IMG/VR virus record: IMGVR_UViG_3300024265_000194
Coordinates: 1 to 25,943 of that record
Source: a virus
DNA: 25,943 nucleotides
Direction: 5' to 3' (one strand)
Made by a program: the position numbers and the translations under genes. Within the stretch, counting starts at the first letter, position 1. The number at the start of each line of letters is the position of its first letter. A model generated the notes under the pieces. The model was not told the DNA's origin, made no database searches, and saw only the letters and a list, made by a program, of their open reading frames with translations. This document shows, one piece after another, positions 2,938-22,367 of the stretch.

Positions 2938-4156
2938 AGTACAACCAGGCGATACTTTAGAGACTATTGCTCGTAAGCAGTATGGCACTGAAACAGCAGC
3001 CAAGCAGATATCAGATGCTAATCCAGGCTTATCAGCTACTCTTATACCCGGAACACAGATCATCACTCCTACAGCACCAGGGACAGCACCAGATGTAATA
3101 CCACAGGTATCTGCCAATAACGAAAATGAAGTGGCAGTAATTATAGAGGGGCAGACTTTCCGCTTTTGGGAAAATATCTCAATTACAAGGGCGATTGATT
3201 CAATGGACCTTGTAGAGTTTACAGCCCCTTTTGATTCAGAAGCGGAAGGATTCAGGGCAACTTTTCAACCTTTTACATTTAAGCCATTATCAATAACGGT
3301 TGGTGGTGAGGCGTTATTTACAGGGACATTAGTTGCAGTTGATCCTAAAATAGAGAACAAAAGGAAAGTATTATCCGTAGGTGCTTATTCTTTACCAGGT
3401 GTTTTAAACGATTGCACACCCCCTGCAAGTGCTTTTCCTCTGGAATTTAACAATCAGAGATTAAAAGAAATTGCCGCTTCTATCGCGGCACCATTTGGCA
3501 TAACAACAGAATTTCAAGCTGATCAAGGCGACGTATTTGCACGGGTGGCTTGTAATCCTGGTAAACGAGCCCTTGTTTTTCTGATAGAATTAGCACAACA
3601 GCGCAATCTAATTGTATCTAGTAGCTCGATTGGTCATTTGATTTTTTTACAATCTGTAGAAGTTGGTAATCCAGTTGCTTTATTAAGCCAGGGTGACATA
3701 CCTGTTTTATCAATATCCCCTGCCTTTTCTTCCCAGGATTATTACAGCCATCTTACAGGTATAAAACCTGTAGTAGTTGGTACAGAAGGTTCACAATTTA
3801 CTGTGAAGAATTCCCGCTTGCAGGGTGTTGTTAGACCAATTACATTCAATGTAACAGATACAGAAAGTGGTGGAGTTAAAACCGCTGTAGAGGCTAAATC
3901 AGGGCGAATGTTTGGAAATATGGCTTCATATTCTGTCAAATTGTCAACGTGGAGAGATACAACAGGTTCACTATGGAAACCAAATACAACAATAAAATTG
4001 ATAGCTCCGGAAGCAATGATATATTCAAATTATGAATTTGTAATCAGGTCTATTGTTTTCAATCGTGACAGTGCATCAGAAACAGCGACGCTCAATCTTG
4101 TTATTCCAGGCTCATTTAGCGGCAAAAATCCGGAGGTATTACCTTGGGAAAATTAG
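2921..4156 (+). CDS. Baseplate hub protein, Mu gpP (gp44)-like, with an N-terminal LysM domain
   Basis: Translation starts at TTG 2921, preceded by a purine-rich AGAGGGCGGG, inside the end of the previous gene. Residues 3-49 form a LysM module (YKVQPGDTLETIARKQYG and a later IPGTQIITP). The rest fits Mu gp44 / P2 gpD-type hub proteins: a VAVIIEGQTFRFWENISITRAID strand pair, then alternating beta-rich segments and a C-terminal IRSIVFNRDSASETATLNLVIPG block. Such proteins form the trimeric hub that joins tube to spike. In P2 the LysM element is a separate small protein (gpX); here it is fused to the hub. Position before the spike gene supports the role. Confidence 0.85.
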   Translation: MSTTYKVQPGDTLETIARKQYGTETAAKQISDANPGLSATLIPGTQIITPTAPGTAPDVIPQVSANNENEVAVIIEGQTFRFWENISITRAIDSMDLVEFTAPFDSEAEGFRATFQPFTFKPLSITVGGEALFTGTLVAVDPKIENKRKVLSVGAYSLPGVLNDCTPPASAFPLEFNNQRLKEIAASIAAPFGITTEFQADQGDVFARVACNPGKRALVFLIELAQQRNLIVSSSSIGHLIFLQSVEVGNPVALLSQGDIPVLSISPAFSSQDYYSHLTGIKPVVVGTEGSQFTVKNSRLQGVVRPITFNVTDTESGGVKTAVEAKSGRMFGNMASYSVKLSTWRDTTGSLWKPNTTIKLIAPEAMIYSNYEFVIRSIVFNRDSASETATLNLVIPGSFSGKNPEVLPWEN

Positions 4157-4920: not shown

Positions 4921-4972
4921 TCAGGGCTGTAAATTATTGTTTATTGATGTATTATGTATTAAGAGGTATTCA

Positions 4973-5422
4973 ATGTTAGAAACTCAGCAAGGCGATGTTA
5001 TCCTATTCCAGATAAATGATGGTGGGGAAATAAATGTAGAAAAAGGTATAGCTGAAATGTCAGGTGGATTAGCAACGGCTGCATATCTATCATTATTCGG
5101 GGGTAATCAAGATGATGATAAAAGAGCAAATAATAATTTAACCTGGTGGGCTAATCTGAATGAAAACAATCCTATAGATCAATACAGAAGTGAAACACAA
5201 AATTTACTAAACAATATTGCGGCAACCAGTAACAATCTTTTACGTTTAGAAGAGGCTGCCAGGCGGGATTTAGCTTGGCTAATTGAAGGTAGTATAGCCT
5301 CTGATATATCAGTTGTGGCTAGTATAATTGCTATCAATAGAGTAGAATTATCAATTGATATTGAGGCTGTAGGCAGGGAATCATCTTTTGAATTTGTAGC
5401 TAATTGGAGAAGCACAGTATGA
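4973..5422 (+). CDS. GP46-like baseplate protein
   Basis: The start at ATG 4973 is chosen over an upstream in-frame codon because AGAGG at 4962-4966 lies at proper spacing and the protein then begins MLETQQGDVILFQINDGG, the usual start of GP46-family proteins. The product has 149 residues. The segment SGGLATAAYLSLFGGNQDDD and the nearby WWANL fit the family, which corresponds to Mu gp46 and functionally to the wedge component gpW/gp25 of other contractile tails. Its C-terminal part is amphipathic and ends with an ATGA overlap to the baseplate J gene. About 50 bases of A/T-rich leader separate it from the spike gene, one of the few gaps in this module. Confidence 0.8.
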   Translation: MLETQQGDVILFQINDGGEINVEKGIAEMSGGLATAAYLSLFGGNQDDDKRANNNLTWWANLNENNPIDQYRSETQNLLNNIAATSNNLLRLEEAARRDLAWLIEGSIASDISVVASIIAINRVELSIDIEAVGRESSFEFVANWRSTV

Positions 5423-19936: not shown

Positions 19937-20167
19937 ATGGCTACTATAAAAGAAAAAATAAAAACTCTAAGATTTGAGTTTGACATGAAAATCAAAGATA
20001 TTGCAGAGGAAATTGGTGTCACCAAATCGGCGGCATATAAATATAGCTCTGGTCAAAGATTAAAGCCTGATCAGGAAATAGAAGATAAAACCGATGCGTT
20101 GATCGAGCGTTTACGTAAAAGCGGTATAAATTATTATCGCCTCAAAAATTCCCGGTCAAGCAAATGA
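19937..20167 (+). CDS. Small HTH regulator
   Basis: The 76-residue protein contains a helix-turn-helix: MKIKDIAEEIGVTKSAAYKYSSGQR (residues 17-41), where VTKSAAYKY would be the recognition helix, followed by a charged helix (DKTDALIERLRKSG) that may dimerise. A palindrome sits 13 bases upstream of its ATG, which suggests autoregulation. GAAGAGG precedes the start. The gene overlaps the next by ATGA. Confidence 0.75.
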   Translation: MATIKEKIKTLRFEFDMKIKDIAEEIGVTKSAAYKYSSGQRLKPDQEIEDKTDALIERLRKSGINYYRLKNSRSSK

Positions 20168-20523: not shown

Positions 20524-20528
20524 CTTTA

Positions 20529-20860
20529 ATCATGAGCCTCCTTATTCATGATAATGGGTTGGCTGTCCCACTGGATGCTTTAATTCAGGAAACAGCTCCG
20601 GTTCTTTGATAAAGAGTTTGCAAGTCGGTAACGATGCTGTGTGAAGCATGGCAACCTATCTGTCACGATGCGGAATAATAGGCGACAAGCGCGGAAGCAT
20701 GACCTGATCAGTCAGTAAGCCTCATTAAGTCGCGGGAAAATGTTACGGCGCGGGCGGTTAGAATCCGACTAGTCCGGCTTGCATGAAGTTGCTTGATACA
20801 CGCGTTGTCTGTCGCGTTAATAACAGACCATAGTTTAGCTACTATAGTCAATTATCAAGT
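20529..20860 (+). ncRNA. Candidate large structured RNA
   Basis: No credible gene fits here, but many perfect short helices do. ATCATGA/TCATGAT (20529-20552) has the loop GCCTCCTTAT. Further helices are TCTTT/AAAGA (20603-20615), ATGCT/AGCAT (20634-20649), CCTAT/ATAGG (20655-20682) and TGAC/GTCA (20700-20714), plus a T-arm-like CGG-TTAGAAT-CCG (20755-20767). A three-way junction is closed by CTTGATA/TATCAAG (20792-20798/20853-20859) and contains GTCTGT/ACAGAC (20807-20828) and ATAGT/ACTAT (20830-20845). Together with the tRNA-like element that follows, this recalls large phage RNAs such as GOLLD and ROOL, which often sit near tRNAs; I cannot verify membership. The strand is chosen by the flanking genes and the + strand tRNA-like fold. 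A weak promoter (TTGCTA 20485-20490, TATATC 20507-20512) may precede it. Confidence 0.55.
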
Positions 20861-20864
20861 ATAG

Positions 20865-20970
20865 AGTCCCGTAGCGGCATGATAATGCTATTGGTGGAGA
20901 TAGAAAGAAGCTAGTAAATCGGCGTCCGCTACTTCTATCGTCTGTCGGTTCAACTCCGGTCTACGGGACT
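20865..20970 (+). ncRNA. tRNA-like cloverleaf without a readable anticodon arm
   Basis: CCCGTAG (20868-20874) pairs with CTACGGG (20961-20967), extended by AGT/ACT to 10 bp. Directly stacked on it is a 5-bp T stem (20944-20948/20956-20960, with two wobble pairs) with the canonical 7-base T loop TTCAACT. This 7+5 geometry is exactly that of tRNA. Position 20968 would be the discriminator A; no CCA follows. The remaining 69 bases do not fold as normal D and anticodon arms. They form a GCAT-GATA-ATGC hairpin (20877-20888) and a long arm with GATAGAA/TTCTATC (20899-20905/20933-20939). Possible readings are an aberrant or decayed tRNA, a tRNA with an insertion, or the tRNA-like domain of a larger RNA. 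Confidence 0.65.
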
Positions 20971-20979
20971 TTAAAGAAA

Positions 20980-21062
20980 TAACCCCCAAATAAACAGCAC
21001 CAGGTAGGGGTTAGCCCTGGTAGGAAACAAATCGCTGGCAAAGCCCCGATAAGCCAGCGATT
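20980..21062 (+). ncRNA. Competing helices and a 10-bp hairpin downstream of the tRNA-like element
   Basis: TAACCCC (20980-20986) can pair with GGGGTTA (21007-21013), and ACCAGG (20999-21004) with CCTGGT (21016-21021). The two helices interleave, but only two bases link 21013 to 21016, too short to cross a 7-bp stem, so they are probably alternatives. AATCGCTGGC/GCCAGCGATT (21030-21039/21053-21062) then forms a perfect 10-bp hairpin. No T-run follows, so this is not a terminator. Confidence 0.45.
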
Positions 21063-21112
21063 GCCAGATGACAGTAAACAAAACTAAAAAGCACTGTGCA
21101 AGAGAGGTAAAT

Positions 21113-21154
21113 ATGCACCGGATGGCACCAAAAGCCGGTTACAAAATCAGATAA
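21113..21154 (+). CDS. Possible 13-residue leader peptide
   Basis: ATG 21113 is preceded by AGAGAGG at good spacing and opens a 13-codon frame, MHRMAPKAGYKIR, ending TAA at 21152-21154. An in-frame ATG at 21068 would give 28 residues but has no binding site. The frame lies among RNA hairpins about 100 bases before the next gene, as leader peptides of attenuators do. It could also be chance. Confidence 0.3.
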   Translation: MHRMAPKAGYKIR

Positions 21155-21181
21155 CATGTTAGTACATTAAGTTTGTAATAA

Positions 21182-21228
21182 GCCCCTCGCTACTGTCAAA
21201 GCCTGTTAGCTAAGAGGATGTGAGGGGC
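21182..21228 (+). promoter_or_regulatory. 5'-leader stem-loop upstream of gene 21257
   Basis: GCCCCTC (21182-21188) pairs with GAGGGGC (21222-21228) and encloses GCTA/TAGC (21189-21192/21207-21210). The structure ends 18 bases before the AGAGG of the next gene and could affect its translation or transcript stability. Confidence 0.4.
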
Positions 21229-21256
21229 GCCTTAAACCAGATAAACAGAGGATAAT

Positions 21257-21631
21257 ATGCAGATCAAAATTAGGGTCCAAATCAATGAAAACATCGTAGC
21301 TCTGAAAAAATTACTAGACAAAGTAATTAAACTGGAAATCAAAAGAGACAACATCCCGGAAAAAATCAAAGAAGACATAGTTAGAGAATTAATTCTTCTA
21401 AGTAATGAATTTGATTTAGAGCTTTCTGGAATATTGGCAATTTTCCAGATTGAAACGTTGGAAGATTATCTATTATGTGAGGCTTGCAATTGTGCCAAGT
21501 TGTCAGAGGATATGAAAAGCGATGTTGACGGGGTGCCATTATGTGAATCTTGCTTTAATGAATTGATAGAGCATACGCTTGCGATGGAACCAGGGACAAA
21601 TATTGTTGATGGAGTGATGAATGATGAGTGA
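21257..21631 (+). CDS. Zinc-finger protein at the head of the radical SAM gene set
   Basis: The 124-residue product has a long charged helical N-terminal half (IKIRVQINENIVALKKLLDKVIKLEIKRDNIPEKIKED) and a C-terminal finger: LCEACNCAKLSEDMKSDVDGVPLCESCF, i.e. two Cys pairs about 20 residues apart, similar to DksA/TraR-type or LIM-like fingers. DksA-like phage proteins bind RNA polymerase; here the finger resembles that class but the match is not firm. AGAGG at 21247-21251 precedes the ATG, and the frame overlaps the radical SAM gene by 8-11 bases. Confidence 0.68.
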   Translation: MQIKIRVQINENIVALKKLLDKVIKLEIKRDNIPEKIKEDIVRELILLSNEFDLELSGILAIFQIETLEDYLLCEACNCAKLSEDMKSDVDGVPLCESCFNELIEHTLAMEPGTNIVDGVMNDE

Positions 21632-22367
21632 AAAGGGCTATCGTATGATCTATAAACCTAAAGGCATGGCTTTGGAATATGCACCACTGGCACTGAATCC
21701 CTATATAGGTTGCAATCATGGCTGTACATATTGCTACGGACCGGCTGCAATGCGTAGACCGGATTTTCATGATGTTATCCGACCACGAAAAGATTTTTTA
21801 AAAAAGCTTGCTTTAGATATCAGAGATATGAAAGCGGAAAATGACAAGAGACAAGTTCTATTATCCTTTGCTACAGATCCCTATAACGAGCTAGAACCGA
21901 AATTGAAGTTGACCCGCAATGCCTTGATGATGCTGAGTAAGGCAGAGATACCTTTTACTGTGTTGACTAAATCTGATTTTGCGGAAGATGATTTTGATTT
22001 GTATAGTGCAACCAGGGATAGCTTTGGTGTATCACTAACTACAATGAATGTTGCAAAAGCGGATAGATGGGAACCAGACGCGGCTAAACCCTGGAAAAGA
22101 TCAGAACAGCTTGAACGTGCAAAACGGGATGGTATTAGTACTTGGGTATCATTAGAACCGGTTATGGATTCAGTAGAGGCTATGGCAGTTATCTATAACG
22201 TCCATGAATTTACAGACGTTATCAAAATTGGCAAGCTCAATCATCAACAGCCAGAAAAGCCAATCGACTGGCAGAAATTTGCATTCGATGCTGTAGAACT
22301 ATGCGAGAAGTTAGGACAGAAATACATCTTGAAAGACAGCCTTGCAAAATATTTAGGGGCGGAGTGA
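21621..22367 (+). CDS. Radical SAM protein, SplB / COG1533 (Rv2578c-like) type
   Basis: The 248-residue protein has the radical SAM cluster motif Cys31-x3-Cys35-x2-Cys38 in NPYIGCNHGCTYCYGPAA, which binds a [4Fe-4S] cluster and S-adenosylmethionine. The surroundings (LSFATDPYNELEPKLKLTRNAL and PFTVLTKSDF) match the SplB-like COG1533 group rather than generic radical SAM proteins. Spore photoproduct lyase of this superfamily repairs thymine photoproducts, but COG1533 relatives have other, mostly unknown roles. The second half has WVSLEPVMDS and VIKIGKLNH. A phage gene of this kind suggests DNA repair or DNA base modification. Two ATG codons in tandem (21621, 21624) are both possible starts. 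The stop overlaps the nuclease start. Confidence 0.85.
   Translation: MMSEKGYRMIYKPKGMALEYAPLALNPYIGCNHGCTYCYGPAAMRRPDFHDVIRPRKDFLKKLALDIRDMKAENDKRQVLLSFATDPYNELEPKLKLTRNALMMLSKAEIPFTVLTKSDFAEDDFDLYSATRDSFGVSLTTMNVAKADRWEPDAAKPWKRSEQLERAKRDGISTWVSLEPVMDSVEAMAVIYNVHEFTDVIKIGKLNHQQPEKPIDWQKFAFDAVELCEKLGQKYILKDSLAKYLGAE

Follow-up and report, generated by a model that had tools for sequence, protein, structure and literature searches.

Genes and features at the locus

The DNA examined here (hereafter the window) is a complete IMG/VR record of 25,943 bases, but it covers just part of a phage genome. Its tape measure, baseplate hub, and baseplate wedge families (PHROGs) identified it as a fragment of a contractile-tailed phage, and the predicted genes are tightly packed and co-oriented. 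The baseplate J protein shares 64% identity with its counterpart in Shewanella phage SppYZU01, and relatives of this protein were found at 34 viral loci, with a top identity of 66%, plus 2 MAG contigs. The later genes of these relatives were mostly unlike those of the window, 2 of 39 window ORFs being matched, weakly, on one contig.

The ORF layout revealed an intergenic gap at 20524–21256 (+ strand), presumed to be a non-coding RNA locus or a long leader. At 733 nt it is the sole large non-coding gap in the window, where the second largest measures 159 nt, and the ORFs within it are of 48 aa or less. The G+C content is 0.47 to 0.53 in the gap core versus mostly 0.3 to 0.4 in the flanking genes, and no terminator-like site was found on the + strand at the gap. 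The proteins encoded by the ORFs at 20164 and 21257 had no match among phage records, and neither the 20164 protein nor the product of the radical SAM gene adjoining the gap (21621–22367, + strand) had close relatives among viral contigs. More distant relatives of the latter, at 25 to 35% identity, occur in Bacteroidales phages and Acidianus two-tailed virus.

Within the gap, a tRNA-like element (20862–20973) separates two flanking parts. The upstream part (20524–20861, + strand) possibly forms a domain closed by GCAAGTCGG/CCGGCTTGC, and the fold of 20524–20864 was no more stable than those of shuffled sequences (z, −1.02; 15 of 100 shuffles equally stable). The downstream part (20974–21256, + strand) contains an inverted repeat forming a 10-bp hairpin at 21030–21062 together with further hairpins, and the fold of 20975–21256 gave a z value of −2.46, with 1 of 200 shuffles equally stable. 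Also in the downstream part, the ORF list includes a 28-codon ORF at 21068–21154 (+ strand), a possible leader peptide, in which an internal ATG (21114) stands behind a Shine-Dalgarno-like AGAGAGGTAAAT, with a direct repeat of the start region of ORF 21257. A candidate H-type pseudoknot near 20980–21022 was rejected for lack of significance, since one also turned up in 23 of 300 simulated regions. A sigma-70-like promoter match (9/12) lies at 20820–20848 (+ strand), its end 13 nt short of the element's closing helix; such sites occur here at near the chance number (5 found versus 2.3 expected).

Fold of the tRNA-like element

The element is closed by a helix evident both in the folds and as an inverted repeat, whose 5′ strand (20862–20874, + strand) pairs with the 3′ strand (20961–20973, + strand) through 13 pairs, 12 Watson-Crick and one G·U. 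Its probability was near 1 in every folded context, with values of 0.62 to 0.96 for the two outermost pairs. The 7-bp acceptor noted in a preliminary description of this DNA (20868–20874/20961–20967), as well as its 10-bp extension (20865–20874/20961–20970), was recovered as the inner portion of this longer helix. The base following the 3′ end of the acceptor core is A20968, and no CCA is encoded.

The T arm (20944–20960, + strand) has the stem GTCGG/CCGGT and the loop TTCAACT (20949–20955), and it stacks on the innermost 7 bp of the closing helix without a gap; both the gapless stacking and the loop, as previously described, were borne out by the sequence and the folds. The same description had called the acceptor and the T arm perfect, and this held for the acceptor, all 7 bp of which are Watson-Crick pairs. 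The 5-bp T stem did not fit it, as it consists of 3 Watson-Crick and 2 wobble pairs, the latter (G·U and U·G) being the outer ones with pair probabilities of 0.01 and 0.15, compared with 0.65 to 0.70 for the inner three.

The 69 bases between the acceptor and the T arm (20875–20943) fold into a GATA-loop hairpin, the stretch ATTGGTGG, and a long bulged arm, in agreement with the hairpin and arm first reported. The hairpin (20876–20889, + strand; loop, 20881–20884) extends from G20876·U20889 to U20880-A20885, occupies the place of the D arm, and showed pair probabilities of 0.86 to 0.97. ATTGGTGG (20890–20897, + strand) is mostly single-stranded, although the ensemble shows partial pairing (0.52) of G20896. 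The long arm (20899–20939, + strand) adjoins the T arm and starts with the outer stem GATAG/CTATC, which is extended inward; its outer five pairs had a probability of about 0.73. As the preliminary description had stated, an anticodon arm with a 7-nt loop was absent from the minimum-energy, centroid, and constrained folds, the long arm with inner loops taking its place.

The minimum-energy fold had a free energy of −38.6 kcal/mol (z, −2.58), with 2 of 200 shuffles equally stable, and the cloverleaf as drawn (−36.6 kcal/mol) lay 2.0 kcal/mol above this minimum. A different D arm, formed by CUAU/AUAG and holding GG in the loop, was discarded, having a pair probability of 0.00 and giving, when enforced, a structure 6.5 kcal/mol worse than the cloverleaf without it.

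Searches for homologues and known RNA families

In blastn searches, the gap gave one 28-nt match against phages (E, 0.2) and none against plasmids. Exact and gapped patterns derived from the element returned 0 matches, and a pattern from the downstream hairpin loop returned three copies of one unrelated context. Comparison by blastn with the whole records behind 36 loci yielded matches of 21 nt or less (best E, 0.0117), and a search of 302 records with 7-base words yielded a best E of 0.53. A covariance model of the window element, run over 45 sources, detected besides itself only loci L195 (E, 4.1) and L159 (E, 9.1), neither of them significant and both collected for sharing ATTGGTGG with the element; the same model found 0 matches at E up to 1 in 37 whole records. 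As the DNA, protein, pattern, and model searches yielded no homologue, the fold of the element is a prediction from one sequence with no covariation behind any pair, the main weakness of the case.

ARAGORN, run in default, intron, and other modes, reported 0 tRNA or tmRNA genes in the window. All 4,227 Rfam families were likewise searched, with no match to the element and none in the window at gathering scores; when E values up to 10 were admitted, the gap gave two low matches only, both unrelated to the element, and the 121-base element gave no tRNA (RF00005), tRNA-Sec (RF01852), tmRNA, or other match. The mascRNA-menRNA model (RF01684) had no match in the element at E values as high as 10, the GOLLD and ROOL models matched neither the window at gathering scores nor the gap at E up to 10, and the Proteo-phage-1 model (RF03044) had no match in the window. 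Thus, the tRNA-finder and covariance-model searches that had been proposed assigned no standard tRNA, tmRNA, GOLLD, or ROOL to this locus. For bacterial Y RNA of the YrlA type, whose expected signature we take to be a Ro60-type partner gene nearby, Rfam gave no match in the window and a Pfam scan of 40 ORFs of the window, itself just a fragment of the phage genome, revealed no Ro60/TROVE domain. The idea that the element is an aberrant tRNA is therefore unlikely to hold in the sense of a working tRNA, given the absence of an anticodon arm, of an ARAGORN hit, and of an Rfam tRNA, tRNA-Sec, or tmRNA match.

Rarity of the acceptor and T arm combination

The tRNA-type feature of the element, a 7-bp acceptor stacked on a 5-bp T arm with a TTCRANY loop (two T pairs wobble), was formulated as a descriptor requiring a T arm with two Watson-Crick closing pairs, a TTCRANY loop, 7 Watson-Crick acceptor pairs, and a spacing of 60 to 130. 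This descriptor matched the window once, and it matched 1,500 first-order Markov windows four times, one of these matches reaching 10 bp; a looser version gave four matches in 60 simulated windows, one of them without acceptor wobble. Among relative-phage loci (81 partly overlapping records, about 1.08 Mb, with the locus copy of the window passed over), the descriptor retrieved only the window element and four tRNAs, all four called by ARAGORN too. Of two long-distance matches of the looser version, the one in L073 was rejected, as it turned out to be a T arm belonging to an ordinary tRNA-Ala, and the one in L077 was set aside. A descriptor run on 201 records gave 37 rows not covered by an ARAGORN tRNA call, among them the copy in the window itself; many of these rows look like tRNAs missed by ARAGORN. 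A chance origin of the element is unlikely but conceivable, since the preliminary description had been free to pick any pattern.

T-armed helix tips in Proteo-phage-1 loci

When stretches in which ATTGGTGG precedes a T arm were sought, at least 120 were retrieved, and 80 loci were read among the matches listed, which were mostly coding sequence and ordinary tRNAs and also included L159 and L195. In these two loci a T-armed fold sits on a long helix 75 to 100 nt downstream of an Rfam Proteo-phage-1 RNA. The T-armed fold of L159 scored 20.5 bits against the tRNA-Sec model, well below the cut-off, and the conserved-helix region of the two loci matched no other Rfam family at cut-off. A pattern for Proteo-phage-1 was found in 97 viral stretches, 88 of them distinct; a relaxed descriptor located a T-armed element within 650 nt in 14 of these 88 loci, and ARAGORN called tRNAs in 6 of them.

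We compared 10 loci that also carry GATGGCCGA, L195 being included through a relaxed pattern. A common helix was present in seven of them (L159, L195, L206, L209, L227, L262, and L289), with 18 to 20 of 20 positions paired, and the region was absent from L234, L242, and L290. The helix tip was T-armed and anticodon-less in four of the seven (L159, L195, L262, and L289), whose helices were paired at 19 to 20 of 20 positions; it was different in L206, L209, and L227, with no T arm in L206 and L227. Two-sided compensatory changes were observed between L262 and L289 (A-T to G-C and G-C to A-T) as well as between L159 and L195 (A-T to T-A). Phage RNAs thus do bear, on long helices, T-armed tips that lack an anticodon arm, and these tips are swapped between phages.

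Like these loci, the window element is an intergenic phage RNA, and like 4 of the 7 it has a long helix whose tip is T-armed and lacks an anticodon arm; it differs in having neither an RF03044 match nor sequence similarity to them. The relationship is a parallel, not homology. A text search of the literature, of partial coverage, found no mention of "Proteo-phage-1." The shared helix with its swapped tip makes up a larger conserved RNA directly downstream of Proteo-phage-1, at L159 1703–2100 (+ strand) and L195 7256–6900 (− strand) and in L262, L289, L227, L209, and L206.

Comparison with known tRNA-like RNAs

mascRNA and menRNA are described as keeping the acceptor and T arm together with a smaller D arm and a longer stem where the anticodon arm would be, with two guanines docking on the T loop, and as being recognized by RNase P and RNase Z (PMC11693755). 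The window element is similar to these RNAs (RF01684; the 3′ ends of MALAT1 and MEN-beta) in its acceptor, T arm, small D-side hairpin, and anticodon-less long arm, and likewise in adjoining what may be a long non-coding RNA. It differs from them in being phage-borne and about 105 nt, whereas they are human, nuclear, and about 60 nt; moreover, mascRNA/menRNA have the D-loop GG inside the hairpin loop, and the GG of the window element, a candidate for T-loop docking, lies in the single-stranded ATTGGTGG, outside the hairpin. GOLLD and ROOL are large phage non-coding RNAs often located near tRNA islands, and the GOLLD linker sometimes carries tRNAs (PMC12286853). The window has no real tRNA and no match to either family.

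Two further systems are comparable in architecture. The tRNA-like domain of tmRNA has an acceptor and a T arm, no anticodon arm, and a long arm that joins on the D side; the window element, unlike tmRNA, has no family match and no alanine identity pair. Mitochondrial t-elements are tRNA-like folds serving as RNA-processing signals, and they differ from the window element in being organellar. A full-text literature search, with partial coverage, found no matching report of phage tRNA-like RNAs without an anticodon arm.

Interpretation of the element

We tentatively favor a reading in which the element serves a phage non-coding RNA or leader as a tRNA-mimic domain, which would be recognized by tRNA-maturation factors. 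This reading is preferred because of the mascRNA/menRNA architecture and the company that GOLLD and ROOL keep with tRNAs, and it is consistent with the anatomy and folds, the rarity of the combination, the location in the 733-nt gap, the mascRNA-like layout, and the Proteo-phage-1 parallel. Its role is probably that of a tRNA mimic or a handle in RNA processing and not that of a translating tRNA.

From the computed fold and location, we infer a model in which the element would be transcribed and the unpaired GG of ATTGGTGG would dock on the T loop as D-loop G18-G19 does, generating a tRNA elbow. This putative elbow, along with the coaxial acceptor/T stack, may be recognized by RNase P of the host and perhaps by further factors that handle tRNAs, and cutting or binding at the element would then set one end of the flanking structured RNA (20524–20861 and/or 20974–21256) or protect it. 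The element would thus work like mascRNA at the MALAT1 end or a mitochondrial t-element, without membership in either. Several features argue against a tRNA mimic. Pairing between leader and trailer continues for 6 bp past the 7-bp acceptor, an unusual trait in a substrate of RNase P. In addition, the element encodes no CCA, there is no GG in the GATA loop, the outer T-stem pairs are weak, the upstream gap part folds no better than shuffles, and no homologue was found. If the mimicry is real, phages would employ the acceptor/T half of a tRNA apart from translation, as a module by which RNase P or other tRNA enzymes take hold of non-coding RNA. This would open a concrete, testable approach to a link that is so far unexplained, the one between tRNAs and large phage RNAs (GOLLD, ROOL, and Proteo-phage-1). 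A bolder form of the proposal, in which the locus is a phage counterpart of MALAT1/mascRNA, with an anticodon-less mimic at which host RNase P would cut and so define the terminus of a large non-coding RNA, and in which it forms with the Proteo-phage-1 tips a recurrent swappable module recruiting tRNA-handling machinery, seems to us unlikely.

Nearly as likely as tRNA mimicry is a purely structural role, in which the element would form the T-armed tip of a larger, ornate RNA of the phage, its T loop making internal tertiary contacts, and would be neither cut nor bound by a tRNA enzyme. A 13-bp closing helix exceeds a tRNA acceptor, as do the helices under the T-armed tips of the Proteo-phage-1 loci, where the T arm is swappable (no T arm in L206 and L227; region missing in L234, L242, and L290), and the downstream gap part folds better than shuffles. 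The upstream part, however, is not more stable than shuffles, and the exact acceptor/T stacking with TTCAACT is tRNA-specific, not being needed for a generic T-loop contact. The preliminary description had offered a tRNA-processing handle and a domain of a larger phage RNA as options; each would fit the anatomy and the 733-nt gap, with parallels in mascRNA, GOLLD-linked tRNAs, and Proteo-phage-1 loci, and the earlier interpretation as a whole is partly supported.

The remaining explanations fared less well. That the element is a decayed or remodeled phage tRNA gene, which lost its anticodon arm and its function, is quite improbable: many odd tRNAs in phage contigs were missed by ARAGORN and tRNAs do occur near Proteo-phage-1 RNA in some phages (the 6 of 88 loci above), but the acceptor helix, which should have decayed too, is intact and lengthened to 13 bp, and the window holds no other tRNA. 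A chance resemblance within an untranslated leader regulating ORF 21257 or the radical SAM gene would fit the energy z of only −2.58 and the leader-like features downstream, namely the hairpins and the small ORF with a ribosome-site-like start; with the 7-bp form seen just 4 times in 1,500 simulated windows and the element falling within the one large gap, we consider it decidedly improbable. A tmRNA-like or tRNA decoy titrating SmpB, an aminoacyl-tRNA synthetase, or a tRNA-targeting defense enzyme would share the arm set of the tmRNA tRNA-like domain, but it is very improbable given no tmRNA match by ARAGORN or Rfam, no G3·U70 alanine mark (pair 3 is C-G), and no encoded CCA.

Other T-armed folds and odd tRNAs in phage loci

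A third, separate anticodon-less T-armed fold was observed at L109 4065–4215 (− strand), with a 10- to 13-bp closing helix and a z value of −3.63; it sits just upstream of a tRNA (3992–4061) that was missed by ARAGORN and found by Rfam. Minihelices of about 43 nt were present at L077 11715–11673 and 11591–11549 (− strand) and in L132 near 4969–5047 (− strand), in the order acceptor stem, linker of ~10 nt with TGG, T arm with a TTCRANY-like loop, and acceptor stem. The two L077 minihelices have the linker NATGGTYGYA in common and carry different, complementary stems.

tRNA genes with anticodon-arm inserts of ~24 to 50 nt were located at L127 7532–7652 and 7661–7775 (+ strand), L160 77–194 (+ strand), and L086 4307–4444 (− strand). 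When nine insert-bearing genes were run in ARAGORN intron mode, four were read as intron-containing tRNA-Trp, -Thr, -Arg, and -Leu, and some of the inserts have short motifs in common, such as GCAAT.
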